NCBI RefSeq assembly: GCF_026000575.1
Contig: NZ_AP026910.1
Coordinates: forward strand, 1 to 64,000
DNA from: Rhodoluna sp. KAS3
GTDB taxonomy: Bacteria; Actinomycetota; Actinomycetes; Actinomycetales; Microbacteriaceae
DNA: 64,000 nt
Direction of reading: 5' to 3'
The number at the start of each line of letters is the position of its first letter. Positions within the stretch are counted from its first letter, which is position 1. The translations under genes and the position numbers were made by a program. Under the pieces are notes generated by a model that was given only the letters and a program-made list of their open reading frames with translations, ran no database searches and was not told where the DNA came from. Shown one piece after another: positions 46-42,571 of this stretch.

Positions 46-100
46 GGCGTAGGGTAATGATTTACTGGCAATCAGCCGGTTGCAGAAGAAGGCGTTTGAG

Positions 101-1534
101 ATGGCAGAAGCAGATCTAGTCACAGGTTTGTGGCACTCGCTGATTACTAAACTCAACAACGATGAACGCCTAACCCCTCAGCTCTTGGGCTTCTTGAGCC
201 TGGTTGAGCCAAAAGGTGTTCTTAGCGAGACTCTTTATCTAGAGGTTCCAAACGAACTAACCCGCGAAATGATCCAGCAGCGCATGCGCCCCTTTATTCA
301 AGAGGCCATGGCAATAAACGCTGAATTCGGCGGCCCAATCAACTTTGCAACCGTGGTGAATCCAGATATCGAGGCAAATTTTGTTCCGGCTCCTCCGGCA
401 GTTACGCCTGAGTCAAACTGGCCGCCACTAAACCCAGCCGGAACTCCGGTAACTTTTCCCGACTCTGTCTCTACCGGCCCGGCGACAACATCTGGCTTCG
501 AAACCCGGCTAAACCCTAAGTACACCTTCGACAACTTTGTTACCGGTGGATCAAATAGATTTGCCCACGCAGCTTCATTTGCAGTGGCCGAAGCACCGGC
601 CAAGGCCTATAACCCGCTATTTATCTACGGTGATTCGGGTCTGGGTAAAACCCACCTGCTGCATGCCATTGGCCACTACGCATTGAACCTTTACCCAAGA
701 ATCAAGGTCCGCTACGTATCCAGTGAAGAGTTCACCAACGACTTCATCAACGCCATTCAAAACAACCGCACCGGTATGTTCCAAGCTGAATACCGAGACA
801 TCGATGTTCTTCTAATCGACGACATTCAGTTTTTGCAGGGTAAAGATCAGACCCAAGAGGCGTTTTTCCACACTTTCAACACACTGCATGATCACAACAA
901 GCAGGTTGTAATTACCTCGGACCTTCCTCCAAAGCAGCTAACCGGCTTTGAAGACCGCATGGTTTCTAGGTTTGAGTGGGGTCTACTCACTGATATTCAA
1001 ACTCCGGAGCTCGAAACCCGCATCGCCATCCTTCGTAAGAAGGCTGAGAATGACAAACTTCGCGTTGACGACGACATCATCGAGTACATGGCAGCCCGCG
1101 TTTCTTCAAACATCCGCGAGCTCGAAGGTACTTTGATCCGTGTAAACGCCTTTGCGGCCCTAAACCGCCAAAAAGTTGACATGCAGCTGGTTCAGACGGT
1201 TCTAAAAGACATTGTTCCAGTGGGTTCAGACCAGGTAATTGCACCGATTGAAATCATCAATGCAGTTGCTGCGTATTACAAGATCACCCCAGATGACCTT
1301 TACGGTTCCTCACGCATCGCAGCTATTGCATTGGCACGACAAATTGCCATGTACATCTGCCGCGAGCAAACCAACCTTTCACTGCCAAAGATTGGCCAGC
1401 TATTTGGTGGACGTGATCACACCACTGTGATGTATGCCCAGCGCAAAATTACAGAATTCATGAATGAGCGCCGCTACGTCTACAACCAGGTAACCGAGAT
1501 TATTGCGCGTATTAAGACAGCGTCAAAGGGTTAG
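101..1534 (+). CDS. dnaA: Chromosomal replication initiator protein DnaA
   Basis: DnaA binds origin boxes as ATP-DnaA, melts the origin and recruits the helicase. The protein has an N-terminal interaction domain, a Pro/Thr-rich linker near residues 95-125, an AAA+ core with Walker [12 protein letters not shown] near residue 180 and Walker [10 protein letters not shown], and a C-terminal DNA-binding domain with the signature [11 protein letters not shown]. The 477-aa form starting at ATG 101 is preferred over an in-frame TTG at 80, because an AGAAGG-type ribosome site lies about 8 bases before the ATG. Flanking DnaA boxes and the following dnaN support the call. The length is normal, perhaps with a short linker for an actinobacterium. 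Confidence 0.97.
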
Positions 1535-1567
1535 TAACTTCAGAAAGTAGTTCCTAAGCCATCAATC

Positions 1568-1592
1568 ACCACTCAAAATCTTGGGTGGTTTT
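1568..1592 (+). terminator. Rho-independent terminator of dnaA
   Basis: A 9-bp stem, ACCACTCAA against TTGGGTGGT with one G-U pair, encloses the 4-base loop AATC. The stem runs into TTTTGTCATTT. It lies 33 bases after the dnaA stop and so separates dnaA transcription from the oriC spacer and dnaN. Confidence 0.75.
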
Positions 1593-2003
1593 GTCATTTA
1601 AGGATCGATTGGGTGATTAATCCACAAAAATGTGGAGAAATTAACATATGAACATGTCTGTGGATAAGTCCGGATAACTAGCAATTAACAGTGCAATACG
1701 GACGCTGAAGTTGTGATGACAAAAATTACAACTCACAGGCGGTCAAGTTATCCACAGAATAATCCACAAGTGTATAAACATCTCACACGGTTGTAGTTTC
1801 GTGAGAAACATTGAGAAGTTGCCAGTTATCCACATTTTCCACAGGTGTTAATAATGTTGTTTTAAATATTTAAAGATTTAGACAGATTCATAACTCTTGG
1901 GGTAAACAGCATTCGGTGTGCAGAGGCTTGAAACCAAAGGTTTTAGGGCATAAATGTGCCAAGATTGAGGACTAGAAACTATTGCGCTTGAACATGCGCA
2001 GAT
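1593..2003. other. oriC: Main oriC spacer between dnaA and dnaN
   Basis: This gene-free stretch holds perfect DnaA boxes at 1659-1667 (inverted), 1748-1756 and 1826-1834. Relaxed boxes lie at 1618-1626 (TAATCCACA), 1631-1639 (inverted), 1760-1768 and 1835-1843 (TTTTCCACA). An A/T-only tract near 1859-1880 (TTTTAAATATTTAAAGATTT core) is the best candidate for the unwinding element. The dnaA-dnaN gap is the usual actinobacterial origin site. The dnaN promoter should lie in the last 150 bases, but no convincing -35/-10 pair was identified. Confidence 0.85.
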
Positions 2004-2015
2004 TTGGGGTCAACC

Positions 2016-3158
2016 TTGAAGTTCCAAGTAAACAAAGACGTGCTCAGCGAAGCTGTTTCTTTTGCTGTCCGCCTTTTGCCTCAGCGCACCACTTTGCCAA
2101 TTCTTGGTGGAATCTTGATCGAAGCGGATGCCAACGCACTTCGTCTATCGGTGTTTGACTACGAAGTATCAGCTCAGGCAGAAATCGTTGCCAAAGTAGA
2201 AACCTCAGGCCGAGTTTTGGTCTCAGGCCGTTTGCTTTCTGAAATTGCCAGCAAGCTACCTAACGCTCCGGTTGAATTTGCCACCGATGGTTCAAAAGTT
2301 ACCGTTTCATGTGGATCAACCAAGTTCTCACTTTTGACCATGCCGGTTGAGGAATACCCAACTCTTCCTGAAATTCCAGCTATTTCGGGCACCATTTCTG
2401 GCGAAGCTTTTGCAGACGCCGTTCACCAGGTTGCTGTTGCCGCCTCAAAGGATGACGTAACGCCAGTATTGACCGGTGTTCAGCTAGAAACCGGTGAAAA
2501 ATCAATTTCATTCGTTGCAACTGACCGTTACCGCGTGGCACTTCGAGAAGCAGCCTGGGTAGCAAGCCCATCGGGCGCCGGATCAGTGGCACTGGTTCCA
2601 GCAAGAACTTTGCAAGAAGTTGCTAAGACATTTGGTAACCAGGGTGAAATTTCTATTGCAATTGCAAAGACTGACGATCGCGAAATGATTGCTTTCAAGG
2701 CAAACAACCGATCAGTGACTTCATTGCTACTTAAGGGCAACTTTCCGCCGGTGAAGAGCTTGTTCCCAACTGACATCGATAACTTTGCTGTGGTTTCTAC
2801 CGGTGACCTAGTCGATTCAACCCGTCGAGTAGCTCTAGTTCTTGAGCGCGAGAGCCCACTGCGATACAGCTTCAACGAAGGCGAGCTTTCACTGGAAGCC
2901 ACCGGAAATGAAACTGCTCAGGCATCTGAAAACATTAACGCCGAGCTAACCGGTAAAGAAATTGTTGTTTCACTCAAACCTCAGTTCTTGATTGATGGCC
3001 TAGCCGGTGTTCACGGGGAATTTGTGAAAATTGCTTTCACCAACAACGACAACCCAAACAAACCTGGTCCTGTTCTGATTTCTAGCCACGGATCAAAAGA
3101 AAAGACCGACTCTGACAGCTACCGTTACCTGCTTCAGCCAAACCTTCTGGTTCGCTAG
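2016..3158 (+). CDS. dnaN: DNA polymerase III beta subunit (sliding clamp)
   Basis: The beta clamp encircles DNA and tethers polymerase III, the mismatch-repair proteins and other partners. The protein opens LKFQVNKDVLSEAV, as expected for the first clamp domain, and continues through the three repeated clamp folds for about 380 aa, the family's normal size. The TTG at 2016 is chosen because it places the conserved KFxV near residue 2, and a GGGG lies about 6 bases upstream. An in-frame TTG at 2004 would add four residues. It follows oriC and precedes recF by 51 bases on the same strand, so it probably shares a transcript with recF and dciA. Confidence 0.96.
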   Translation: MKFQVNKDVLSEAVSFAVRLLPQRTTLPILGGILIEADANALRLSVFDYEVSAQAEIVAKVETSGRVLVSGRLLSEIASKLPNAPVEFATDGSKVTVSCGSTKFSLLTMPVEEYPTLPEIPAISGTISGEAFADAVHQVAVAASKDDVTPVLTGVQLETGEKSISFVATDRYRVALREAAWVASPSGAGSVALVPARTLQEVAKTFGNQGEISIAIAKTDDREMIAFKANNRSVTSLLLKGNFPPVKSLFPTDIDNFAVVSTGDLVDSTRRVALVLERESPLRYSFNEGELSLEATGNETAQASENINAELTGKEIVVSLKPQFLIDGLAGVHGEFVKIAFTNNDNPNKPGPVLISSHGSKEKTDSDSYRYLLQPNLLVR

Positions 3159-3209
3159 GCACTAAAACAAAAGGCTGAATTACAAGAATTAGAAAAGGGC
3201 GGGCGTTAG

Positions 3210-4376
3210 ATGTACATAAAGCATCTTTCGCTCGCCCAATTTCGTAATTACAAAAGCGCAGAGCTTTCGCTATCGCAAGGCGTCAACCTGCTGGTTGGAC
3301 CAAATGGCCAGGGTAAGACCAATCTGGTTGAGGCAATCCGCTATTTATCAACCCTCAGTAGCCACAGGGTCGCGGGCTACCTTCCTCTGATTCAACAAAA
3401 CCAAAGCCAGGCGGTCATTCGGGCCATGGCAAGTTTTGATGAGCGCGATGTATTGATCGAGTTAGAACTTAACCGCGATTCGGCCAATAAGGCCCGCATA
3501 AATAAATCACCCGCCCCGAAAGTGCGCGACATTCTTGGGTTTGTGAATTCGGTCACTTTTGCGCCCGAAGACCTCGACATTGTGAAGCGTGATCCAAGTA
3601 ATCGCCGGGCTTTCATCGATGAACTTGTAATTCAGGTTTGGCCAAGATTTGCCGGTGTTTATTCAGATTATGAGCGTGTTCTAAAGCAAAGAAACACTTT
3701 GCTAAAAACCGCCAGACAAACCGGAACCAAAGGTTCTGCTCTGAGCACACTGGATGCCTGGGATGCATCATTGGTTTCTTACGGCTCTGAAATTATTGCC
3801 GCAAGGCTGGACCTGATTGAAAGACTTCGCCCACATCTATTTGAGGCCTACCAATCGATTGCAATTGCAAACAACGAGCCTAGGATTTTGGTCAAATCAT
3901 CGCTATTGGGTGCAGCAATTGTGCAGTTTGATGAGGACTCTGAGGATTTGGAGTACATCAACACCTCTGATCGTGCAGAAATAACCGAGCTGTACAGCAA
4001 AAAGTTGTCATTCGTGCGGCCAAAAGAGCTTGAGCGGGGAATTACATTAGTTGGCCCGCACCGCGATGACTTGGTCTTGATGCTGGGTGACTTACCGGCC
4101 AAAGGATATGCCAGCCACGGGGAATCCTGGTCTTACGCCTTGGCGCTGCGATTGGCTTCAATTGCGCTGCTACGAGCCGAAACCAGATCTGGCGACCCAA
4201 TTTTGATTCTGGATGACGTGTTTGCTGAATTGGACTCTGGTAGGCGTGAGCGATTGGCCGGAATGGTGGCCAACAACGAACAGGTTTTGATCACCGCAGC
4301 CGTAGCCGAGGACATTCCAAAGGCCCTCCAGGCCACAGTATTTAATGTAATTTCGGGCACGGTGACCGGTGGATAA
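3210..4376 (+). CDS. recF: DNA replication and repair protein RecF
   Basis: RecF is an SMC-like ATPase that acts with RecO and RecR to load RecA at single-strand gaps. The 388-aa protein starts with the family N terminus (MYIKHLSLAQFRNY) and has Walker A GPNGQGKTN near residue 33. Toward the C terminus are an ABC-type signature region and Walker B LILDDVFAELD near residue 330. The ATG follows a purine-rich GGGCGGGCG stretch. Its stop lies inside the first codons of the next gene (8-base overlap), which implies translational coupling with dciA. Confidence 0.95.
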   Translation: MYIKHLSLAQFRNYKSAELSLSQGVNLLVGPNGQGKTNLVEAIRYLSTLSSHRVAGYLPLIQQNQSQAVIRAMASFDERDVLIELELNRDSANKARINKSPAPKVRDILGFVNSVTFAPEDLDIVKRDPSNRRAFIDELVIQVWPRFAGVYSDYERVLKQRNTLLKTARQTGTKGSALSTLDAWDASLVSYGSEIIAARLDLIERLRPHLFEAYQSIAIANNEPRILVKSSLLGAAIVQFDEDSEDLEYINTSDRAEITELYSKKLSFVRPKELERGITLVGPHRDDLVLMLGDLPAKGYASHGESWSYALALRLASIALLRAETRSGDPILILDDVFAELDSGRRERLAGMVANNEQVLITAAVAEDIPKALQATVFNVISGTVTGG

Positions 4377-4854
4377 AAGAGATTTTGCCCAGGAGTTCTA
4401 TTGGCGAATGCGTGAAGCGGTTACCGGAAGGCTTAGCCGCGAAGCAAAACGGATTGCCGAAAAAGAAAACGCCAAAAACTCTCGTCCTTTCGAGAAGGGA
4501 CGCGACATCATTGCCGCCGGAGACTCTATCGAGGGTCTTTTAAAGTCATTCCGCTGGGAAAGCCAGCTTTCAGAGGCTGATTTATTCAATAACTGGGCCA
4601 CCGTGGTTGGCGAAACCAACGCTGCCAGCTCTCAGCCCGAGGCACTAATCAACGGCGTGCTGACAATTAGGTGCAAGTCAACTGCCTGGGCAACCCAATT
4701 GAGACTCATGCAGACTCAACTTCTAGAGCAAATTAGGGCAGCTTTTCCGAAGCTTGAAATTACAAGTTTGAAGTTGTTGGGGCCGGATGCTCCGAGCTGG
4801 AAAAAGGGCCCTCGATCGGTGCCCGGAAGAGGCCCGAGAGACACCTACGGATAA
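4369..4854 (+). CDS. dciA: DciA-type DUF721 protein, putative helicase loader
   Basis: This 161-aa DUF721 protein starts at GTG 4369, overlapping the end of recF by 8 bases. DUF721 proteins (DciA) are ancestral partners that help load or operate the replicative helicase DnaB in bacteria lacking DnaC or DnaI. The visible signature is the central block around residues 55-125, including the NWATVVG segment and the CKSTAWATQLRLM segment. The N terminus is basic and charged. The position between recF and gyrB is the classical actinobacterial place. The function is assigned from the family only. Confidence 0.88.
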   Translation: MDKRDFAQEFYWRMREAVTGRLSREAKRIAEKENAKNSRPFEKGRDIIAAGDSIEGLLKSFRWESQLSEADLFNNWATVVGETNAASSQPEALINGVLTIRCKSTAWATQLRLMQTQLLEQIRAAFPKLEITSLKLLGPDAPSWKKGPRSVPGRGPRDTYG

Positions 4855-4899
4855 CCCCCTTTTTTGGGCGCTTTAACCCCAGCCTGATTGGCCCTTAAT

Positions 4900-4921
4900 C
4901 CGCGCTACGGCGCGGTTTTTT
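4900..4921 (+). terminator. Rho-independent terminator after dciA
   Basis: The stem CCGCGC (4900-4905) and GCGCGG (4910-4915) with loop TACG is followed by six T residues. It closes the dnaN-recF-dciA transcript. The remaining 140 bases before gyrB presumably carry the gyrB promoter. Confidence 0.8.
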
Positions 4922-5049
4922 GCTTCTCGACACAACGCACAAATACAGGGTTTTGTCAGGCCAAAAAGGTAGACTTCTTGGTAGTTAGTTACCCCGAATA
5001 TCAGTCGGCTACTGAAGCCGCATTTCACCGGGCCTAACCACGCGAATAA

Positions 5050-6996
<1,947 letters not shown>

Positions 6997-7034
6997 GCCG
7001 CCGACACCGACGAAAGATTTAGAGAAGAGAAATC

Positions 7035-9581
7035 ATGGCTGACGAAACCACCAATGCAAGTGGACTAATCGACAATATTGAGCAGGTCGACCTTCAGGTC
7101 GAAATGCAGCGCAGCTACCTCGACTACGCGATGAGCGTTATCGTGGGCCGCGCCCTTCCAGACGTTCGCGATGGCCTAAAGCCAGTTCACCGCCGCGTTA
7201 TCTATGCAATGTTTGATGGTGGTTACCGGCCAGACAAGCAGTTCTCAAAGTGCTCGCGCGTTGTTGGAGACGTTATGGGTCAGTACCACCCACACGGTGA
7301 CAGCGCGATTTACGACACCATGGTCCGACTTACTCAGGACTGGAACCTTCGCTACCCGCTGATTTCAGGCCAGGGAAACTTTGGTTCACCAGGTAACGAC
7401 CCTGCCGCTGCACCTCGATACACCGAGTGCCGCATGGCTCCGCTGGCCATGGAGATGGTTCGCGACATCGACGAAGAAACCGTTGATTTCCAGGACAACT
7501 ACGATGGTCGCACCCAGGAACCAACCGTTCTACCGAGCCGCATCCCTAACCTACTGGTCAACGGATCCATTGGTATTGCGGTTGGTATGGCCACCAACAT
7601 TCCACCTCACAACCTTCGTGAAGTAGCCGATGGTGCCCAGTGGTACCTAAAGAACCCAGAGGCAACCCGAGAAGAACTGCTTGAGGCTTTGATCGAGCGC
7701 ATCAAGGGCCCAGACTTCCCAACCGGCGCACACATTCTTGGCCGCAAGGGAATCGAAGAGGCGTACCGCACCGGTCGTGGCTCGGTCACCATGCGCGCAA
7801 TCATCAATGTTGAAGAGCTGCACGGCCGCACCTGTTTGGTTGTAACCGAGCTGCCTTACCAGGTAAACCCTGACAACTTGGCAGAAAAGATTGCCGGTTT
7901 GGTTAAGGAAGGCCGACTCCAAGGCATCGCCGACATCCGTGACGAAACCTCTGGCCGCACCGGTCAGCGCTTGGTAATTGTGCTCAAGAAAGATGCAGTT
8001 GCCCGCGTTGTTTTGAACAACCTTTACAAGTTGACTCCACTTCAAGAGAACTTCAGCGCAAACATGTTGGCTCTGGTCGATGGTGTTCCGCGCACTTTGA
8101 GCCTTGACGGCTTTATCAGCAACTGGGTTGAGCACCAGGTCGAGGTTATTGTTCGCCGCACCCAGTTCCGCCTGCGTAAGGCAGAAGAGCGCGCCCACAT
8201 TTTGCGCGGTTACCTAAAGGCTCTCGACGCACTCGACGCCGTAATTGCTTTGATTCGCAAGAGCGCCAACGTTGAAGAAGCACGCGATGGCTTGATGGCA
8301 TTGTTGAGCATCGATGAACTGCAGGCACGTGCAATTCTGAACATGCAGTTGCGCCAGCTTGCAGCCCTTGAGCGCCAGAAAATCATTGATGAAGCAGCCG
8401 AGCTTGAGGCTCAGATCATTGACTTCAAGGCAATCATCGCCGACCCAGTTCGCCAGCGCACCATCATCAGTGAAGAACTTGATGAAGTTGTGGCAAAGCA
8501 CGGCGATGACCGCCGAAGCGCAATCATTGCTGGTTTTGACGGCGATGTTTCAGTCGAAGACCTGATTCCTGAAGAGGAAATGGTTATCTCTCTCACCCGC
8601 GGTGGCTACATCAAGCGCACCAAGAGTGACAACTACCGCCAGCAACACCGCGGCGGTAAGGGCGTAAAGGGAGCCAACCTTCGTGCTGATGACGTTGTTG
8701 AGCACTTCTTTGTGACCACAACCCACCACTGGTTGTTGTTCTTCACAAACAAGGGCCGCGTTTACCGCACCAAGGCCTATGAGGTTCTTGAAGGTGGCCG
8801 CGACACCAAGGGCCAGCACGTAGCTAACCTGCTTGCCCTGCAGCCTGATGAACAGATTGCCCAGGTTCTTGACCTTAAGGACTACCAGCAGGCGCCATAC
8901 CTAGTGCTTGCTACCCGTGATGGTTTGGTTAAGAAGACCTCACTAGACGCCTATGACACTGCAAGAACCGGTGGAATTATCGCGATCAAACTTCGCGAAG
9001 GCGACGAACTGGTCTCAGCGATGTTGGCATCCGAGGCTGACGACCTACTGCTCGTTTCACACAAGGGTATGTCGATCCGATTCTCAGCCAGCGATGAAAT
9101 GCTGCGACCAATGGGCCGCGACACTTCAGGAAACATCGGTATGAACTTCCGCGAAGGTGACCACCTGCTTTCTGCCAGTGTGATCAATGATGCTGACGAA
9201 GCCTTTGTATTTGTGGTTACTGAAGGCGGATACGCCAAGCGCACCGAGGTTTCTCAGTACCGCCCGCAAAACCGCGGTGGTTTGGGTATCAAGGTAGCCA
9301 AGCTTGAAGAAAAGCGCGGAGACCTAGTTGGCGCAATCATCGTTGCCGAAGATGACGAAGTTCTTGTAGTTCTAGCCAGTGGCAAGGTGGTTCGTTCAGC
9401 TGTGAACGAGGTTCCAGCCAAGGGCCGTGACACCATGGGTGTTGTCTTTGCTCGATTCGAAGAGGATGACGTAATTCTCGGACTAGCGAAAAACACCGAA
9501 CGCAATCTAGAGTCGAATGAGATTGCCGGCGATGACGAAGTTGAAGCCGCCGAAGTAGCCACTGAAGGAGCAGCTGAATGA
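7035..9581 (+). CDS. gyrA: DNA gyrase subunit A
   Basis: GyrA is the DNA breakage-reunion subunit. The 848-aa protein has the catalytic-Tyr region ([15 protein letters not shown], about residue 135) and a quinolone pocket reading [11 protein letters not shown]. That keeps the Ser and Asp of the drug-sensitive type. The C-terminal beta-pinwheel carries the GyrA-box QQHRGGKG near residue 535 and repeated blades to about residue 815, then an acidic tail. The last codons overlap the start of the next gene as ATGA. Confidence 0.98.
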
Positions 9582-27106: not shown

Positions 27107-27664
27107 ATGAAGCTTAAAACCAAGCGTTCAGCGATTGCAGTCATCGGTGCCACCAGCATCTTGGCCTTTGCAGTAGCCACCCCATCTTTTGCACACGATC
27201 GCGTTGTCGGCACCGAGACCTCAAGCACCACCGAGTTTGAGGCAGTAAAGGCAAGCGTCACCGCAACCATCACCGCCGTTCCAACAACGGTCACCTCGGC
27301 CAAGGCTGCGGCACACGGCACCCAGTTCATCGTTTATAAATTGGCAGATGACGCCACAGCAGTTCCGGCAACGCAGCCAACTGTTGGCGGCAAGCGCATC
27401 CATGTGAAGTCTGGCACCCTGGCCGACGGCACATTGACCGGCGTTCTCGAGCTAAAGGGCGGCCTGGCTGGAACCACAACTAACTACGCGATTTACACCG
27501 CCGATGGCGCAACTGCAATTTTTGCAACCGTCACGGTAGATGCCACCGGCACAGTTGCCACGGCTACGACTTCAGCTGATGTCACTGCGGCTTACACCGC
27601 ACCAACGGCCAAGGCTGTAAAGGCACAAAAAGGCAAGCACGGCAAGAAACACGGACACCGCTAA
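27107..27664 (+). CDS. Small secreted protein with Lys/His-rich tail, function unknown
   Basis: The 185-aa protein starts with a typical signal peptide (basic start, hydrophobic core, cleavage near PSFA-HD at about 31). The mature part is rich in Thr, Ala and Val, apparently beta-rich, with no cysteines. It ends in a strongly basic Lys/Gly/His tail. A very good ribosome site (AAAGGAAAGAAC then ATG) and a strong terminator suggest high expression as a single-gene unit. No family was recognised. The tail might bind the anionic wall or metals, which is inference. Confidence 0.75.
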   Translation: MKLKTKRSAIAVIGATSILAFAVATPSFAHDRVVGTETSSTTEFEAVKASVTATITAVPTTVTSAKAAAHGTQFIVYKLADDATAVPATQPTVGGKRIHVKSGTLADGTLTGVLELKGGLAGTTTNYAIYTADGATAIFATVTVDATGTVATATTSADVTAAYTAPTAKAVKAQKGKHGKKHGHR

Positions 27665-31245: not shown

Positions 31246-32046
31246 TTAGTTTTCACCGCTGGCCAACAGGGCCACAAATCCATCGGTGGCAGCCAATTCG
31301 CCATCAGGCAAAATAAAGATCGCTTCAATGCCGTCGACTTTGTTGAGGTCGGCAATGGCTCTAGGCCCTTCGGCAAATGCGGCGGTTGCCCAAATATCTG
31401 CGGTGACTAAATCTTTTGCCACCACGCTTACCTGCAACAACTCGCGTGCCGGTGCTTTGCCCGAAGCCTTTGGGTTCCAGATGTGCTCGCCGCGTTCGGC
31501 AGAGCCGCTAGTTGCCAGCGCACGATAATCGGTGTTGGCCAGGTCAATCACGGTTAGCACCCCAGCCTCTGGGCTGGCAATTGACACCGGTTTTGAAACA
31601 CCGATTCGCCAGTCGCGCGCCTCGGTAAGCCCATCGGCCAACCAAACGTCTCCGCCGGCGTTCATCGTAAAGTCATCGATTCCGGCGGTTACCAGCACAG
31701 CTGCTGCTTCGGCAGCGGCCCAGGTTTTTACCAACCCGGATGGGTCAAAAGTATTTTGTGGAGTCATGGCACTGAACCAGCCGTTGGTCACCTTTTCCCA
31801 GTGATCACAGGCGTCCCAAATTTCGGCAACCACCGGTGGCAGTGAGGCCAGGTTGGTCTCACCTCGTGCCAGACGACTGATTGGTGATTCTGGTTTATAG
31901 GTACTGAAAGTTGCATCGGCCCGGTGCAAGACTCGGCAGGCCTCGGCCAATAATGCTGCCACTTGGGCCTCTGGCAACTCAGTTCGTCCCGCAAATCTGA
32001 AGGCAGTGCCCATGCAGATTTCGGTGTGGTCAAAGGTGGTCATCAC
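31246..32046 (-). CDS. apbE: FAD:protein FMN transferase ApbE
   Basis: ApbE cuts FAD and attaches FMN covalently to Ser/Thr of target proteins outside the membrane. The 266-aa protein has STFSTYKPESPISRL near residue 45, DPSGLVKTWAAAEA near 105 and the metal/FAD motif NAGGDVW near 135. It is shorter than most ApbE proteins and lacks an obvious signal peptide or lipobox. Its start overlaps the preceding FMN-binding gene by 4 bases. The two neighbouring FMN-binding proteins are the likely substrates. Confidence 0.92.
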   Translation of the reverse strand: MMTTFDHTEICMGTAFRFAGRTELPEAQVAALLAEACRVLHRADATFSTYKPESPISRLARGETNLASLPPVVAEIWDACDHWEKVTNGWFSAMTPQNTFDPSGLVKTWAAAEAAAVLVTAGIDDFTMNAGGDVWLADGLTEARDWRIGVSKPVSIASPEAGVLTVIDLANTDYRALATSGSAERGEHIWNPKASGKAPARELLQVSVVAKDLVTADIWATAAFAEGPRAIADLNKVDGIEAIFILPDGELAATDGFVALLASGEN

Positions 32047-32456
32047 TGCAGCTTCGATAGCGCGCTGGCCAGCGCCTCTTGGTAGGCATTAGTGCTAAAG
32101 GTTGCGCCAGAGGCGTTTCCGAAATCAGCACTTTGGGCTTTTAGCGCCGCTGCGTTCAGCACCGGAAAAACTGCGTCATAACCATCGGTAGCGGTGGCGA
32201 CAACCTCGTTAATGCTTTCGATCTGACCATCGGTGGCCGTAATTTCTAACTGAACTTCACCGTATCGGTAGGTAATGGCATCGCCGGTAACAGTCTGCGT
32301 AGTGGTGGTGCCATCGGCTGACCCGCTGGCCAAAGGAGGGTTCAAAATGGCATTTATGCCAAACCCGCCACCGATGCTCACGGCGATAAACGCGACCAGA
32401 CCACCGGCCCAGTTGCGCTTCGGCGGCACTGCCAAAAGTGGTTGATCAGAATTTAG
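32043..32456 (-). CDS. Membrane-anchored FMN-binding domain protein (canonical SGAT site)
   Basis: A protein of about 137 aa with one N-terminal helix (VAFIAVSIGGGFGINAIL) and an extracytoplasmic FMN-binding domain like NqrC/RnfG. The flavinylation motif SGAT appears in NASGATFSTNAYQEA near the end, and the Thr is the predicted FMN attachment site. The open frame extends to 32534, but TTG 32456 is chosen. A GGAG lies 7 bases upstream, and the start overlaps the upstream gene's stop by 11 bases. Confidence 0.82.
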   Translation of the reverse strand, partial: LNSDQPLLAVPPKRNWAGGLVAFIAVSIGGGFGINAILNPPLASGSADGTTTTQTVTGDAITYRYGEVQLEITATDGQIESINEVVATATDGYDAVFPVLNAAALKAQSADFGNASGATFSTNAYQEALASALSKLQ

Positions 32457-32895
32457 CAAGCGCTGACTCCACTGCTTTTTTGAAGGCGTTTGTTGTGTAG
32501 GTGGCATTTGAGATGTTGCCAAAGTTGCTGCCATTTGCCTTGATGGCTGCGGCTACCAAACTCGGGAAAGCCTTGTCGCGACCATCTGATGACTCAGCCC
32601 GAAGCAGTTTGATCGTGGTGATCACATCACCCTTTTTAACCACCTCAACCTGAACAAATCCGTAACCCTTACCCACGTCAATGACATCGCCGGTTTTGGT
32701 CACCGATGCTGTGCTGGCCGTAGGGGTTGGCTCGGCCATGATCTGACTTGAGGCCGCGCCATCAGGGTTGGTTGATTCGGTCGCGCTAGGTTCAGCAAAG
32801 GTAAAGCCGGTCTCGGCAGTTAGGCCAATTTGATAGCTGGCTGCAAATAGGCCAAGGCTCACCAAGCCAAGCGTTGATTTCGTTGCGGTTCTCAC
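32446..32895 (-). CDS. FMN-binding domain protein (variant SNAT site)
   Basis: A 149-aa exported protein with an N-terminal helix (STLGLVSLGLFAASYQIG), a Ser/Thr/Pro linker and an FMN-binding domain. It is paralogous to the next gene: VAAAIKANGSNFGN here against LNAAALKAQSADFGN there. Its flavinylation motif reads SNAT (NISNATYTTNAF), with Gly replaced by Asn but the acceptor Thr kept. The frame is open to 32973. GTG 32895 is chosen because it overlaps the reductase stop as GTGA and follows a strong GAGGAGT. Confidence 0.84.
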   Translation of the reverse strand: MRTATKSTLGLVSLGLFAASYQIGLTAETGFTFAEPSATESTNPDGAASSQIMAEPTPTASTASVTKTGDVIDVGKGYGFVQVEVVKKGDVITTIKLLRAESSDGRDKAFPSLVAAAIKANGSNFGNISNATYTTNAFKKAVESALAKF

Positions 32896-34301
32896 CAGGA
32901 GTACTCCTCTGCGTGAATATTCTCTTCTGGGGTGCCGGAGCGAATAACGGACTTTCTTACAATCTTGGTCCAAGCCTCAGGGCCACAAACATAGACGTCA
33001 GAATCTGAGACCCAAGGTGCCATGACGGTTAGGCGGGCTTGATCCGGAAGACCATCGGTGTCGTGGTTCATCCAAGAGCCATCTTTGCCGCGTGGGCCGG
33101 TAAGCACGTGCAACTGAAAGCCGCGACGTCGTGCAATTACCCGCACCTCTTCAAGCAGCGCGGCATCTTCTTCGCTGCGCACTCGATAAATTATGGTGAT
33201 GTCACCCGGGCGGGCAGCCATCGATTCGGCAAGCGCGCGAACCGGTGGAATACCAATTCCAGAGGCAATCAAAACCACCTTTTCTTTGGTGCGGCGTTCT
33301 TCGGTAAACACTCCGTATGGGCCTTCGACCATCACGCGGGTGCCAGGCTTTAGCTTCTGCAGCGCAGCGGTGTCGTCACCTCGGTTGCCGATGGTGAAGC
33401 GCATGAACTGGTTGTTAGGTGCCGCTGAGATTGAGAATGGGTGAGGCCTCCACCACTGTTTTGGGGTCAGCAAACGCAGCATGTAAAACTGGCCGGCTTG
33501 CCCACCGAGCTGCTCGATGTTTTTGCCGGTGATGTACAAAGAGGTTGCGTCACTCGACTCGGCCACTACAGCCTGAACTCTAAGGTTCATTTTCAAGCCA
33601 CGGATAATCGGTGCGAGCACGCGGTACCAGATTAGGTTCACTGCCACGAATAGGTACAGGGTTACCCAAAAAATGGTTTGAACCGGTTTGCCGGCGATGT
33701 CGGTGCCGGAGGTAAAGATGTGTGGCACCGCCAATAGAACTGACGCGTAAGACATCACGTGAACGATGTACCAGGCTTCGTAGCTCATCTTTCGGCGTGC
33801 AAAATTGAGCGAAGTAACGACCACCAAGATCATCAGAGCCAAGGCCAAGCTTGCGGTAAGCATGTCTGGCACGTCGGTAATTAGGTAGGTCAACTCGGCA
33901 ATTAGTGTGCGCCCATCGGTGATTGCCATGCCAATCAGAGATGCCAAAAAGTGGGCCACGATGAAGTACAGAACCGGCTTGCCCAAACGCTTGTGAGCCA
34001 GGGTTGCTTTGTCGTGTCCGTAAAACTTGTCGATCCAAGGCACTCGTGCCACCAACAACATGTGAATCAAAAGCAGGTCGGTGCCGATAAGTGAAGTTAG
34101 GCGGCTAATTGCCTTGAGTGCTGAGGGAACATCGGTGATGTCTTTCAGGCCACCGGCTGCCAAAAACATAACAATGACCGCAACAACGCTGGCCCAGGCA
34201 ATACCCTCGATGATGTCTTGGGCACGCTTGAGGCGCAAGTACTTGCGCACACCCAAACGGACTTTACCGTTGGGTTTCACGAGCTGCAGGTCTTTGAACA
34301 T
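32892..34301 (-). CDS. Ferric-reductase-like transmembrane flavoprotein
   Basis: About 469 aa. The N-terminal half has six or so helices with His residues spaced as in the ferric reductase/NOX haem domain. The C-terminal half is an FNR-like module with the FAD motif HPFSISAAP near residue 290, NADPH motif IASGIGIPPVRAL near 350 and terminal CGPEAW. It should move electrons from NAD(P)H through FAD and haem across the membrane. The frame opens at TTG 34322; ATG 34301 is chosen. It heads the FMN-protein/ApbE operon. Confidence 0.88.
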   Translation of the reverse strand: MFKDLQLVKPNGKVRLGVRKYLRLKRAQDIIEGIAWASVVAVIVMFLAAGGLKDITDVPSALKAISRLTSLIGTDLLLIHMLLVARVPWIDKFYGHDKATLAHKRLGKPVLYFIVAHFLASLIGMAITDGRTLIAELTYLITDVPDMLTASLALALMILVVVTSLNFARRKMSYEAWYIVHVMSYASVLLAVPHIFTSGTDIAGKPVQTIFWVTLYLFVAVNLIWYRVLAPIIRGLKMNLRVQAVVAESSDATSLYITGKNIEQLGGQAGQFYMLRLLTPKQWWRPHPFSISAAPNNQFMRFTIGNRGDDTAALQKLKPGTRVMVEGPYGVFTEERRTKEKVVLIASGIGIPPVRALAESMAARPGDITIIYRVRSEEDAALLEEVRVIARRRGFQLHVLTGPRGKDGSWMNHDTDGLPDQARLTVMAPWVSDSDVYVCGPEAWTKIVRKSVIRSGTPEENIHAEEYSW

Positions 34302-34430
34302 GCTTCTAATCTGCTCTACCAATCTGGATGTTTCCTGAATGAAGCCTGCAAGCCACCTCTGAGATTAAGTGTTTCACGAACGACCCACTCCCGAAACACT
34401 CGCGCAACAACCGCTGGCTAATTTTTGAGC

Positions 34431-39119: not shown

Positions 39120-39995
39120 GTGCCGGCAAATAAAAACAAGCTCTTCTTCGGAGATAACCTCTCTGTGCTGAAGTCTATGCCCGACGAATCGGTACAGCTT
39201 ATTTACATCGATCCGCCTTTCAACACCGGCCGCACTCAATCCCGCGGCGGCAACTCCACCCGCCGAAGTGAGACCGGCAGTCGAGTTGGTTTCAAGGGTC
39301 AGCGCTACGAAATTGTTCGGTCAACCGTGCTGTCTTATGACGATGAATTTGCCGATTACTGGGGCTTTCTTGAACCCCGATTAGAAGAGGCTTGGCGCCT
39401 GCTGAATGAGACCGGCACTCTCTATTTGCACTTGGATTACCGAGAGTCGCACTACGCCAAAGTTTTGCTCGATGCCCTGTTTGGCAGAGAGTCATTTCTG
39501 AACGAGATCATCTGGGCCTACGACTATGGCGCAAAGTCAACCAAGCGTTGGCCTGCCAAGCACGACACCATCTTGGTTTATGTCAAAGACCCAGCCCAGT
39601 ACTTTTTTAATTCAGCTGAGGTTGACCGCGAGCCATACATGGCACCCGGGCTAGTCACCCCCGAAAAGGCTGAACTTGGCAAACTGCCCACCGATGTCTG
39701 GTGGCACACCATTGTGTCGCCGACCGGTAAAGAAAAGACTGGTTACCCAACGCAAAAGCCATTGGGTATCTTGCGTCGCGTAATTCAGGCATCGTCAAAA
39801 CCGGGCGATGTTGTTCTGGACTTTTTTGCTGGCTCGGGAACCACCGGTGCCGCCGCAGCATCGCTAGACCGAAACTTTATTTTGGTTGATCAAAACCCCG
39901 AGAGTATTGAGGTCATAACTCAGCGAATGGCTAAGGCTGGCGTTGAGTTTGATTTGATCCGCGCACGCTCACCAAAAAAACCAGCAGCAAAGTAA
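39120..39995 (+). CDS. Solitary beta-type DNA methyltransferase (N6-adenine or N4-cytosine)
   Basis: A 291-aa DNA methyltransferase with beta-type order: catalytic DPPFNTG near residue 31, then SAM-binding FFAGSGTTGAAA near 237. The latter is preceded by TQKPLGILRRVI, typical of N6_N4_Mtase. No restriction nuclease is beside it. The GTG start has no ribosome site and lies 17 bases from the divergent acetyltransferase start, so leaderless translation is likely. Its last 65 bases overlap the end of the converging permease gene. Confidence 0.88.
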   Translation: MPANKNKLFFGDNLSVLKSMPDESVQLIYIDPPFNTGRTQSRGGNSTRRSETGSRVGFKGQRYEIVRSTVLSYDDEFADYWGFLEPRLEEAWRLLNETGTLYLHLDYRESHYAKVLLDALFGRESFLNEIIWAYDYGAKSTKRWPAKHDTILVYVKDPAQYFFNSAEVDREPYMAPGLVTPEKAELGKLPTDVWWHTIVSPTGKEKTGYPTQKPLGILRRVIQASSKPGDVVLDFFAGSGTTGAAAASLDRNFILVDQNPESIEVITQRMAKAGVEFDLIRARSPKKPAAK

Positions 39996-41514
39996 GCGCA
40001 ATCAAAATGGCACAGACCGCCATAGCCATTCCGTAATTCACAGCACCTGGGCGCGAAATTAGTGAGTAGAGAATTGTCGGCAGGGTTGCCTGGTTTCCAT
40101 ATGCCAGCAGTGATGCAGCGCCAAATTCACCGATAGAAACCACAGCCGCGTATCCGGTTGCCGTTGCCAAAACCCCGCGAATCATCGGTGCTTCAATTTG
40201 CCACCAGATTTGCCCGGCCGAGGCGCCCTCGGTTTCGGCCGCTTCGCGATGCTCCGATCCGATTGAAAGCAGCGCTGGGTAAACCAGGCGAATCACCAAG
40301 GGTAGAGCCATTAGTGCTTGAACCAGTGGTACAACCAGCCAGCTGGAACGAAGCGGCAGGGGTCCGCCGCCAAAGGTAACCAGATAACCAAACCCGAGCA
40401 CCACCGACGAGACTCCCATCGGAAGCAGGAACAGGGCATCGAGCGTGCGGTTTGAGAGTTTGGCAATTTTTGTGACGGCTGGTCTAGACAGCAGGTAGGT
40501 AACCAGAGTGCCCAGAGCAACCGAAATAACTGTTGCAATTGCGGCATTTCGCAGGCTGTTGACTGCTGCGTCCAGCACAGTGATGTTGAGCAGATCGCGC
40601 TCACCGCGGGTACTCAAATTCTCAAAATTTTGCATACTCAAAACGCCGTCAAAGCTGAACGATTTGGCAATCACCTGAGCAATCGGCCAGCCAATCAATC
40701 CCACGATAATTGCGCCGGTCACAACCACGGCCAACCAATCACGCTTGTCTACTCTCGGCTTGTTTCCGCCTTCGTCCACCTGCTCAATGCCGACTGTTCC
40801 CTTTGTGATTCGGTCGCTGACGATGAAGGCCATCGCAGTTAGCAGGGTTTGAAATATGGCCAGAGCGGATGCCTTTGGAAGGTCAAGGTACTGAAGTGCG
40901 GCAACGCTAATTTCAGTTTCAATCGACTGAACCAGGCCGCCGCCGAGCACCAAAACAATTCCGTAGCTTGAAGCACAGAACAAAAATGTCAGAGCACCTG
41001 CCGAGACAAGGGCCGGTTTAAGTTGTGGAAGTGAGATTGACCACAGTGTGCGCAGGCGGCCGGCACCCGCGATTGCCGCTGCCTCCTCGGTCTCGACATC
41101 CATAGTTGCCCAAACGCCACCGAGAGTTCTGACCGTGATCGAGTAGTTGATGAATATGTGGGCCAAAATGATCAGCCAAATTGCCGGTAGGTCTCTGAAG
41201 CTGGTGAATGCAATAGCAACCACAATGGTCGGCAGCACCAGGGGCACTGTCACTAGGGCACGGATTATTTTGTGACCCGGAAATGACTTTCGATACAGCA
41301 GGTAGGCGCCTGGAATTCCAAGGACCAGGCAAAGCAGTGTTGAAACTAGCGCCTGCCAAACCGTGAACCAAATGGCCCGCAGGCTGCTGGGTTCAGAAAA
41401 AGTTTCAATCCACTCGCTGGTGAATCCGGTTTGCAAAATGTTGGTCAGCGGCCAGTAGAACAGCACCCCCACAAAGAGTAGGGGCGCTGCCCACAGTGCT
41501 GACCTTTTGATCAT
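39931..41514 (-). CDS. thiP: Thiamine-type ABC transporter permease ThiP
   Basis: A 527-aa double-length inner-membrane permease with two homologous halves of about six helices. An EAA-type loop is seen in each half: EEAAAIAGAGRLRTLWSISL near residue 143, and EAAETEGASAGQIWWQIEAP near 430. ThiP and FbpB proteins share this architecture. The TPP riboswitch upstream of thiB makes thiamine or its phosphates the likely cargo. It lies 15 bases after thiB. No ATPase gene (thiQ) follows. Confidence 0.9.
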   Translation of the reverse strand: MIKRSALWAAPLLFVGVLFYWPLTNILQTGFTSEWIETFSEPSSLRAIWFTVWQALVSTLLCLVLGIPGAYLLYRKSFPGHKIIRALVTVPLVLPTIVVAIAFTSFRDLPAIWLIILAHIFINYSITVRTLGGVWATMDVETEEAAAIAGAGRLRTLWSISLPQLKPALVSAGALTFLFCASSYGIVLVLGGGLVQSIETEISVAALQYLDLPKASALAIFQTLLTAMAFIVSDRITKGTVGIEQVDEGGNKPRVDKRDWLAVVVTGAIIVGLIGWPIAQVIAKSFSFDGVLSMQNFENLSTRGERDLLNITVLDAAVNSLRNAAIATVISVALGTLVTYLLSRPAVTKIAKLSNRTLDALFLLPMGVSSVVLGFGYLVTFGGGPLPLRSSWLVVPLVQALMALPLVIRLVYPALLSIGSEHREAAETEGASAGQIWWQIEAPMIRGVLATATGYAAVVSIGEFGAASLLAYGNQATLPTILYSLISRPGAVNYGMAMAVCAILIALTLLLVFLVSVRGSNQTQRQP

Positions 41515-41529
41515 GCAATCAATCTACGG

Positions 41530-42540
41530 TTAGTTGTTACCGAAAATAGCTGACCATTTTTCGAGCCAAGTGACTCGGTTGGCTGCGATGTTTAGGTCTC
41601 CGCCAACGGTGTTGGTTGCGGCCGGAGCAAACTGTGCCCAAGCTTCTGGCAGGGCAATACCCTCAGTCACCGGATAGACATACATGCTGTCAGGCAGTGC
41701 AGTTTGGAAAGACTGACCAAGCATGAAATCGATAAATTTCTGTGCGCCGACTACGTTCTTTGAACCCTTTAGAACGGCCGCATACTCCCACTGTCTAAAG
41801 CAGCCATCCATGATTGAGGCGGTCTGGCTCTGGCCGTTGTCGCGTACTTCGAAAGCTGGTGATGATGAGTAGCTCAAGACAATTGGGTAGGCGCCCTGGC
41901 CGCTTGAGCCTGAGAAGTCAGTGAAGTAAGCGTCTTCCCAGCCCGATGCAATTTTGACTTTGTTTGACTGCAGGTCAGACCAGTATTGCTGCCAGCCTGC
42001 CTCACCAAAAGTTGCCACCGTGGCGGTTAGGAATGCCAAACCTGGTGACGAAGTACTTGGGTTGGTGAGTACGGTTAGGCCCTTATATTCAGGCTTGGTT
42101 AGGTCGGCAAGTTTGGTCGGAGGCGTTAGGCCCTGGTCAGCAAACCAAGCTTTGTCGTAGTTCAAGCAAACGTCGGCGTAGTCAATTTCACGCAACGGGT
42201 TATCGGCGTAGTCACCGGTGGTGTCAAAAATTTCAGCTTCGATAGCTGCTGGCGCAAAGGTGTTGTCAATTCCGTAGACCAGGTCGCCAATCGGGGCATC
42301 TTTGGTCAAAACCAGTTTGTTGGTCATCTCGCCGGCATCGCCCGCTTTTACTTGGGTCACGGTAATGCCGGTTTCAGCCTTGAACTCTGCCAAAAGCTCT
42401 TCGGTAAAGACCGCTGAGTCGTGGGTCACGATGGTCAGTTCATTGGTTGAGGTTGGTCCGGTTGCGGCTGAGCATCCGGTTATTGAGGTTGCTGCGATAA
42501 GCCCGGCAACGGTAATGGTGATGATGTGTTTGATTTGCAC
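41530..42540 (-). CDS. thiB: Thiamine ABC transporter substrate-binding lipoprotein ThiB
   Basis: A 336-aa extracytoplasmic binding protein with a lipobox-bearing leader (SITGCSA, Cys near 23). The mature part has ELTIVTHDSAVF, GDLVYGIDNTFAPAA and a C-terminal YPVTEGIALPEAW, typical of ThiB-type proteins. GTG 42540 is chosen. The longer frame to 42570 would run through the ribosome-site hairpin, and CAGGAGGG lies just upstream of the GTG. Confidence 0.92.
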   Translation of the reverse strand: MQIKHIITITVAGLIAATSITGCSAATGPTSTNELTIVTHDSAVFTEELLAEFKAETGITVTQVKAGDAGEMTNKLVLTKDAPIGDLVYGIDNTFAPAAIEAEIFDTTGDYADNPLREIDYADVCLNYDKAWFADQGLTPPTKLADLTKPEYKGLTVLTNPSTSSPGLAFLTATVATFGEAGWQQYWSDLQSNKVKIASGWEDAYFTDFSGSSGQGAYPIVLSYSSSPAFEVRDNGQSQTASIMDGCFRQWEYAAVLKGSKNVVGAQKFIDFMLGQSFQTALPDSMYVYPVTEGIALPEAWAQFAPAATNTVGGDLNIAANRVTWLEKWSAIFGNN

Positions 42541-42543
42541 TTT

Positions 42544-42571
42544 CGTGCCCTCCTGAAATAGATAGGGCACG
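42544..42571 (-). promoter_or_regulatory. Ribosome-site-sequestering hairpin of thiB
   Basis: Read on the minus strand, CGTGCCCT and AGGGCACG form a perfect 8-bp stem. The right arm contains the thiB Shine-Dalgarno (AGGAGGGC), 4-6 bases before the GTG. It directly follows the TPP riboswitch, so it is the likely expression platform that blocks translation when TPP is bound. Confidence 0.75.

Follow-up and report, generated by a model that had tools for sequence, protein, structure and literature searches.

The first 64,000 nucleotides of contig NZ_AP026910.1 of Rhodoluna sp. KAS3, a very small freshwater bacterium (hereafter "the window"), contain, on the reverse strand at 31246-34301, an overlapping four-gene operon that encodes a ferric-reductase-like membrane protein (FRD), two predicted carriers of flavin mononucleotide (FMN1 and FMN2), and ApbE, a predicted flavin adenine dinucleotide (FAD):protein FMN transferase. 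The operon is a member of the published "MsrQ-like" class of flavinylation systems and hence is not new. What sets it apart as a variant are its tandem carriers, a drifting glycine in the acceptor motif and, above all, a compact ApbE without a leader that is paired with exported targets. We think it probable that this ApbE remains in the cytosol and flavinylates the carriers before or during their export. Layout and gene identities had been proposed in an earlier note on this stretch; the coordinates and overlaps bear out the four overlapping reverse-strand genes, and all of the identities passed the Pfam cut-offs. The genes and predicted acceptor sites are:

32892..34301, reverse strand: FRD, ferric-reductase-like membrane protein with C-terminal FAD- and NAD(P)H-binding domains (ATG start; Pfam)
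32446..32895, reverse strand: FMN1, with N-terminal export/anchor segment, P/S/T-rich linker and one FMN_bind domain, motif SNAT (GTG start; Pfam, leader, AlphaFold2 domain model, Foldseek)
32043..32459, reverse strand: FMN2, with N-terminal export/anchor segment, linker and one FMN_bind domain, motif SGAT (TTG start; Pfam, leader with basic N-side)
31246..32043, reverse strand: compact ApbE, predicted FAD:protein FMN transferase, without signal peptide (ATG start; Pfam, AlphaFold2, Foldseek, invariant residues)
32500..32502, reverse strand: predicted FMN-linked Thr codon of FMN1 (SNAT), read from the DNA
32100..32102, reverse strand: predicted FMN-linked Thr codon of FMN2 (SGAT), read from the DNA

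The start codons of the four genes were assigned by reading the DNA; FRD has a further in-frame TTG at 34322, upstream of the ATG at 34301. FRD and FMN1 overlap by 4 bases, FMN1 and FMN2 by 14, and FMN2 meets ApbE at a TGATG junction. The FMN2 start also overlaps the FMN1 stop in most two-carrier relatives. Pfam E-values, all past the curated cut-offs, were 5e-15 (Ferric_reduct), 2e-8 (NAD_binding_1), 2e-6 (FAD_binding_8), 1.7e-6 and 1.5e-5 (FMN_bind in FMN1 and FMN2) and 6e-31 (ApbE). The genome, a single contig of 1,338,021 bases, has one ApbE gene, which the profile matches in two pieces, and two FMN_bind matches, FMN1 and FMN2.

MsrQ-like systems combine a PF01794 membrane protein, often with a C-terminal NAD-binding domain, with FMN_bind and apbE in one cluster and a signal peptide on at least one target (PMC8238504). 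FRD matches PF01794 at 5e-15 (56 bits, cut-off 28), the two FMN_bind genes and apbE are adjacent, and both FMN proteins carry a signal-like segment as judged by hydrophobicity, not SignalP. The link to flavinylation and the role in flavin-based extracytosolic electron transfer suggested in the earlier note are supported by this class, as described in the text of PMC8238504.

NAD(P)H would reduce the FAD of the cytosolic FRD domain; electrons would then cross the membrane via the b haems of FRD and reach FMN on FMN1 and FMN2, which would lie outside, held by N-terminal segments and flexible linkers, with the next acceptor downstream. We infer this path and its direction; the order NAD(P)H, FAD, haem is suggested by the domains of FRD and by its best PDB sequence matches, the FAD-binding FR-type proteins 8qq7, 8qta and 8qt6 (E ~1e-15). 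His110, His124, His188 and His201 of the membrane domain (numbered from TTG 34322) are invariant in 15 of 15 aligned FRDs and are likely the ligands of two haems.

Leaderless ApbE and exported carriers

The window protein is a member of the ApbE family by its profile match and fold (Foldseek 4xdt, TMq 0.82). Ser179, His187, Asp216 and Thr220 are invariant across 34 sequences, and the Ser, His and Asp among them would correspond to the Vibrio triad, judging from the motif and the PDB alignment. The low score against the NCBIfam equivalog NF007774 (40.5 bits, cut-off 498) is not evidence against the family, since that model represents one close subgroup.

The N-terminus of the window ApbE reads MTTFDHTEICMGT, and the first strand of the fold spans residues 2-10 in the AlphaFold2 model (predicted local distance difference test, pLDDT, 94.7). 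It contains neither an export signal nor a lipobox. A hydrophobic leader was found on none of the cluster ApbEs at 61 script-anchored loci (FRD, FMN_bind and ApbE on one strand), and those of L056, L064 and L067 are also leaderless by eye, so that 64 of 64 assessable clusters are without a leader; L098 was not judgeable. The 64 loci comprise 19 from the genus and 45 others, some closely related to each other and one (L053) labelled as a Proteobacteria metagenome-assembled genome (MAG). The count left out L098 (ApbE fragment only), L165 (ApbE on the other strand, cut by a contig end), L136 (weak FRD and FMN matches) and other ApbE loci lacking an FRD cluster. For comparison, 12 control ApbEs from Vibrio, Photobacterium, Winogradskyella, Azohydromonas and Achromobacter included eight with a clear leader, three without and one unclear; the three leaderless ones, from Vibrio and Photobacterium, are second copies in their genomes. 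The leader yardstick separates clear cases only: the unclear control, L171, scored 1.43, as did the top N-extensions of the cluster ApbEs, which are alanine-rich. Among related actinobacteria, the ApbE copies of L128, L131, L133 and L137 lie outside FRD clusters and have no clear leader either.

A start-site error that masks a leader was considered and rejected: the in-frame stop is followed by GTG 32046 as the first possible start, a single codon upstream of the ATG. In relatives, too, the ApbE start lies near the FMN_bind stop, which likewise speaks against a hidden leader. ApbE is located 3' of FMN_bind on the same strand in 64 of 64 counted clusters, close in 63 and about 450 bases on in L050.

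The window ApbE is also compact, with about 47 residues fewer than full-length. The Pfam match is split in the cluster ApbEs, near profile positions 74 and 125. In an alignment, most of a stretch present in Vibrio as TVGPLVNLWGFG is missing from the window enzyme and from 5 of 5 further cluster ApbEs. At this stretch cluster ApbEs have 23-29 residues, the 12 controls 69-72 and six non-cluster ApbEs 59-81.

The two FMN-binding proteins had been read as exported, and each indeed begins with a hydrophobic export or anchor segment. Such a segment is present in 85 of 85 FMN_bind proteins at FRD loci: 35 from the genus and 50 from outside it. These 50 include L063, L066, L093, L098 and L105; L144, with a weak FMN_bind match (score 28), is in the ApbE count and outside the 50. 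In 49 of 50 genus rows (27/28 FMN1 or single carriers, 22/22 FMN2) the residues preceding the segment carry a higher net charge than those following it, as for proteins with an N-in, C-out topology. Lipoprotein carriers were rejected, as no lipobox occurs in any of the 85.

With no twin-arginine (Tat) motif in their leaders, the Rhodoluna carriers probably leave the cytosol through Sec. The consensus used, RR.[FGAVML][LITMVF] in the n-region, matched 0 of 35 genus FMN proteins and is absent from the window FMN1 and FMN2 leaders after their start codons; a Tat-type match in L003 was discarded, as it lies upstream of the start codon. Outside the genus it matched 17 of 50, several with a P-x-RR pattern and from genomes of 7.8-9.9 Mb, and some leaders of such large-genome relatives could be exported via Tat. 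The view of the module as extracytosolic, taken in the earlier note, therefore fits the carriers with their export segments better than the leaderless, compact ApbE, and the label does not simply extend to the whole module.

FAD synthesis is cytosolic. A compact, leaderless ApbE that stayed in the cytosol would draw on this FAD and modify the FMN proteins before or during export. No match to the EetB family of FAD exporters (PF07456) was found in 36 genomes (23 of the genus), the window genome included; 2 of 14 control genomes do match. Because ApbE can modify a seven-residue tag, so that a folded domain is not required (PMC12052999), an unfolded or nascent chain could serve as its substrate. 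Sec exports preproteins already bearing phosphopantetheine or biotin (PMC3418276).

Acceptor motifs of the two carriers

The acceptor motifs, given in the earlier note as SGAT and SNAT, read GNASGAT in FMN2 and GNISNAT in FMN1. Relative to the published substrate motif, D-x-x-[ST]-G-A-[ST], Thr and Ala are present in both carriers, and Gly in FMN2 but not FMN1. The Asp is present in 0 of 50 genus motifs versus 35 of 50 outside the genus; Asp-to-Ala in an ApbE target motif has a minor reported effect (PMC12052999). The FMN1 domain model (pLDDT 83) has as its top Foldseek match 8p2a, domain 2 of SaFMN3 (TMq 0.79, 35% identity, E 3e-7); the runners-up, 8p2b and 3o6u, have E >0.001.

Loss of the acceptor Thr in relatives, which the earlier note had named as evidence that would count against it, was looked for. 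The residue is Thr in 49 of 50 genus motifs and Ser in one (one row, L019 FMN2, ANLSGAT, was read by eye), so the proposal stands; outside the genus it is Thr in 46 of 50 and Ser in four. The genus member L153 has SGAS in FMN2, with Ser at the acceptor site. Thr is kept in 28 of 28 first-gene or single-gene genus rows, those without Gly included. The motif count left out L006 (the contig ends before the FMN genes), L032 (not of the genus) and a second cluster in G009.

The motif Gly is replaced in 8 of 22 FMN1 proteins (six Arg, one Asn, one Ser) versus 1 of 22 FMN2 proteins (Gln), in 0 of 6 single-carrier loci and in 1 of 50 rows outside the genus. In a weakly resolved tree the FMN1 losses (L003/L004, L009/L010, L015, L022-L024) are scattered over three or more separate regions and so look repeated, in counts of related rows not corrected for kinship. 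In a Klebsiella fumarate reductase, flavinylation reached about 50% when the corresponding Gly was changed to Ala (PMC12052999). The idea that the two carriers differ in efficiency gains only indirect support from the uneven replacement and from this variant, and unequal flavinylation of FMN1 and FMN2 is plausible. Repeated loss of Gly in one of two tandem carriers supplies natural variants for probing what ApbE requires.

A single duplication giving clean FMN1 and FMN2 clades is not recovered by the tree (85 columns, 14 open forks). One group (97/90) comprises FMN1 and the six single copies, with the long-branched L019 FMN2 inside and L016 FMN1 outside, and FMN2 sequences are spread. In the MsrQ-like clusters of L097, L099 and L104 there is apparently more than one FMN_bind domain per protein, as in SaFMN3.

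Conservation, neighbours and alternative readings

The 12 closest named loci (FRD identity 63-80%) are labelled Rhodoluna (6), Microbacteriaceae (5) and Actinomycetales (1), and the nearest are Rhodoluna MAGs. Of 36 genus genomes, the window genome counted, 29 have an FRD match; six of the seven without one are <80% complete and the other, G003, is 93% complete. The order FRD-FMN(-FMN)-ApbE is kept on one strand in 19 of 20 fetched genus stretches. Presence in most genus genomes and kept gene order indicate that the module is not a chance arrangement, and its retention in a small genome suggests that it is useful. Where the FMN genes could be read (28 genus loci), two are present at 22 loci and one at the other six. 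The exceptional stretch, L165 (G023), has the lowest FRD identity in the genus (42%); its ApbE closely follows FMN_bind but in the opposite orientation, and is truncated where the contig ends. G009 has a second FRD-FMN-FMN-ApbE cluster on a short contig (L044; G009:C9:1621-3021), G030 has two ApbE genes, and L102, in a 9.9-Mb genome of the same class, has two tandem FRD-FMN_bind pairs with one ApbE that they apparently share. No ApbE was found beside the FRD match in L061, L063, L066, L068-L082, L093, L105, L106, L108, L109 and L111-L125, some of which are contig ends (L083 has no FRD match).

A 4HBT gene lies within 19 of the 20 genus stretches and an M13 peptidase gene also within 18, L165 again being the exception. 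A functional tie to these neighbours, or to an ATP-grasp gene, was considered and set aside: they are on the opposite strand in the window, and L147 and L148 have 4HBT and M13 on the FRD side. Elsewhere in the window, dnaA at the contig start is followed by dnaN-, recF-, gyrB- and gyrA-like genes (80-9581, from translations), which places the window at the replication origin; 27107-27664 encodes a small exported-looking protein with a Lys/Gly/His-rich C-terminus (GKHGKKHGHR); and 39931-42570 encodes an ABC permease and a lipoprotein-like binding protein that resemble a thiamine- or iron-type importer.

Of four alternatives, which are not mutually exclusive, two compete with flavinylation in the cytosol before or during export and two concern other parts of the module. 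ApbE might act outside, reached by a non-classical exit or by riding with a partner, and there flavinylate the exported carriers as exported ApbEs do elsewhere. ApbE has been described as typically membrane-anchored and periplasmic (PMC12052999), and the targets in these clusters do bear export segments; yet the absence of a leader in all 64 assessable clusters, an ordered strand from residue 2 in the model and the lack of an EetB-type exporter match to supply FAD outside make this improbable. Alternatively, ApbE might serve another cytosolic protein, as in the case of the Klebsiella fumarate reductase, and the exported FMN proteins would stay unmodified. Cytosolic ApbEs with cytosolic targets exist (PMC12052999), and the three Vibrio/Photobacterium controls are likewise leaderless, but we judge this very improbable given that each of the 64 counted clusters has ApbE 3' of FMN_bind and in the same orientation (close by in 63), that both FMN_bind matches of the genome are in this operon, and that the acceptor Thr is conserved. 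Several points weigh against cytosolic flavinylation followed by export as well, and the support for it is circumstantial. Leader assignments relied on hydrophobicity, a regex and inspection by eye instead of SignalP, and the 85 of 85 is somewhat aided by a script that favours start codons yielding a hydrophobic segment. The charge bias is weaker outside the genus (35 of 50 with higher charge before the segment, 7 equal, 8 reversed). PF07456 is one known exporter family and others are conceivable; TatC is present in the genome, so a non-canonical Tat route is also conceivable. Passage through Sec requires an unfolded chain, and an attached flavin could delay it. The leaderless ApbEs with cytosolic targets known elsewhere (PMC12052999) count here too.

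The remaining alternatives concern FMN1 and the fate of the electrons. FMN1 may be poorly flavinylated or not at all, with FMN2 as the working carrier and the SNAT/SRAT change marking loss or specialisation. The replacement of Gly in 8 of 22 FMN1 proteins against 1 of 22 FMN2, 0 of 6 single and 1 of 50 non-genus proteins, and the halved flavinylation of a Gly-to-Ala variant of another protein (PMC12052999), favour this; it is unlikely, though worth keeping in view, because the acceptor Thr is retained in 28 of 28 first- or single-gene rows and because, in the weakly resolved tree, the six single copies cluster with FMN1 rather than with FMN2. It is doubtful that the module serves as an assimilatory ferric reductase that supplies Fe(II) for uptake. 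VIT1 occurs in 153 of 1797 MsrQ-like clusters (PMC8238504), and the relative G042 has VIT1 (C12:37485-38111) about 3 kb beyond the cluster ApbE on the same strand. Searches of the window genome for an iron-uptake partner, in contrast, gave no link: there is no FTR1 match, FeoB_N matches reach at most 45 bits where five relatives have FeoB-like top matches at 131-156, the sole VIT1 match is at 1,136,809, far from the cluster, and the neighbours in the window flanks include no recognisable iron genes in their translations. The gene content thus does not favour iron as the acceptor. EfeU was reported in 68% of Rhodoluna in a Luna-1 study, without canonical EfeOB partners (PMC12422013), and a Bifidobacterium screen in which an apbE mutant was impaired only with ferrous chelators (PMC5449479) is suggestive only. 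Oxygen is the reported acceptor of SaFMN3 (PMC12052999), so the module may, by analogy, have an oxidase role.

Comparison with known systems

The MsrQ-like class numbers 1797 clusters, 1437 with an NAD-binding domain, and is broadly conserved in Actinobacteria (PMC8238504, Meheust et al. 2021). The Rhodoluna module differs in that tandem FMN_bind genes are usual in the genus (22/28 loci) and in its leaderless, compact ApbE, a point absent from the portions of the PMC8238504 text available to us. We found no discussion of a compact leaderless ApbE with exported targets in our searches of the open literature (listings and the openings of abstracts) or in passages of PMC8238504, PMC11334425 and PMC12052999, figures and supplements aside; Figure 4 of PMC8238504 marks "secreted" proteins according to its legend, and its authors may have recorded the missing signal. 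Their first count dropped genes without a signal peptide, and, if our reading is true, scans of this kind pass over such ApbEs.

How an ApbE that acts outside the cytosol obtains its FAD has, to our knowledge, no settled answer outside Listeria. There, extracellular electron transfer (FmnB/PplA) also involves an exported FMN-bearing carrier and an ApbE-type enzyme, but FmnB works outside the cytosol and depends on EetB-FmnA for the export of FAD (PMC9973259), whereas the Rhodoluna ApbE has no leader and its genome no PF07456 match. The Listeria authors held that the outside location of ApbEs necessitates outside FAD (PMC9973259). A leaderless ApbE in a class widespread in Actinobacteria offers a different, testable answer. 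In our judgement it is evenly balanced whether Actinobacteria turn the FAD-supply problem round in this way, with a compact cytosolic ApbE modifying the carriers first and Sec, or Tat in some lineages, then carrying the covalent flavin across. If so, flavin export would be unnecessary for extracytosolic flavinylation, and covalent flavin would join phosphopantetheine and biotin (PMC3418276) as modifications that pass through Sec.

The carriers share the FMN_bind fold with Streptomyces azureus SaFMN3, which has a predicted N-terminal secretion signal and anchor (PMC10339131; PDB 8p2a); SaFMN3 holds three FMN domains in one chain, whereas Rhodoluna has two one-domain proteins. The cytosolic ApbE of Klebsiella pneumoniae likewise has no signal peptide, but its target is a soluble fumarate reductase (PMC12052999), while the targets linked to the Rhodoluna enzyme have export segments. 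The three leaderless Vibrio/Photobacterium ApbEs retain the segment that is missing from the Rhodoluna ApbE.

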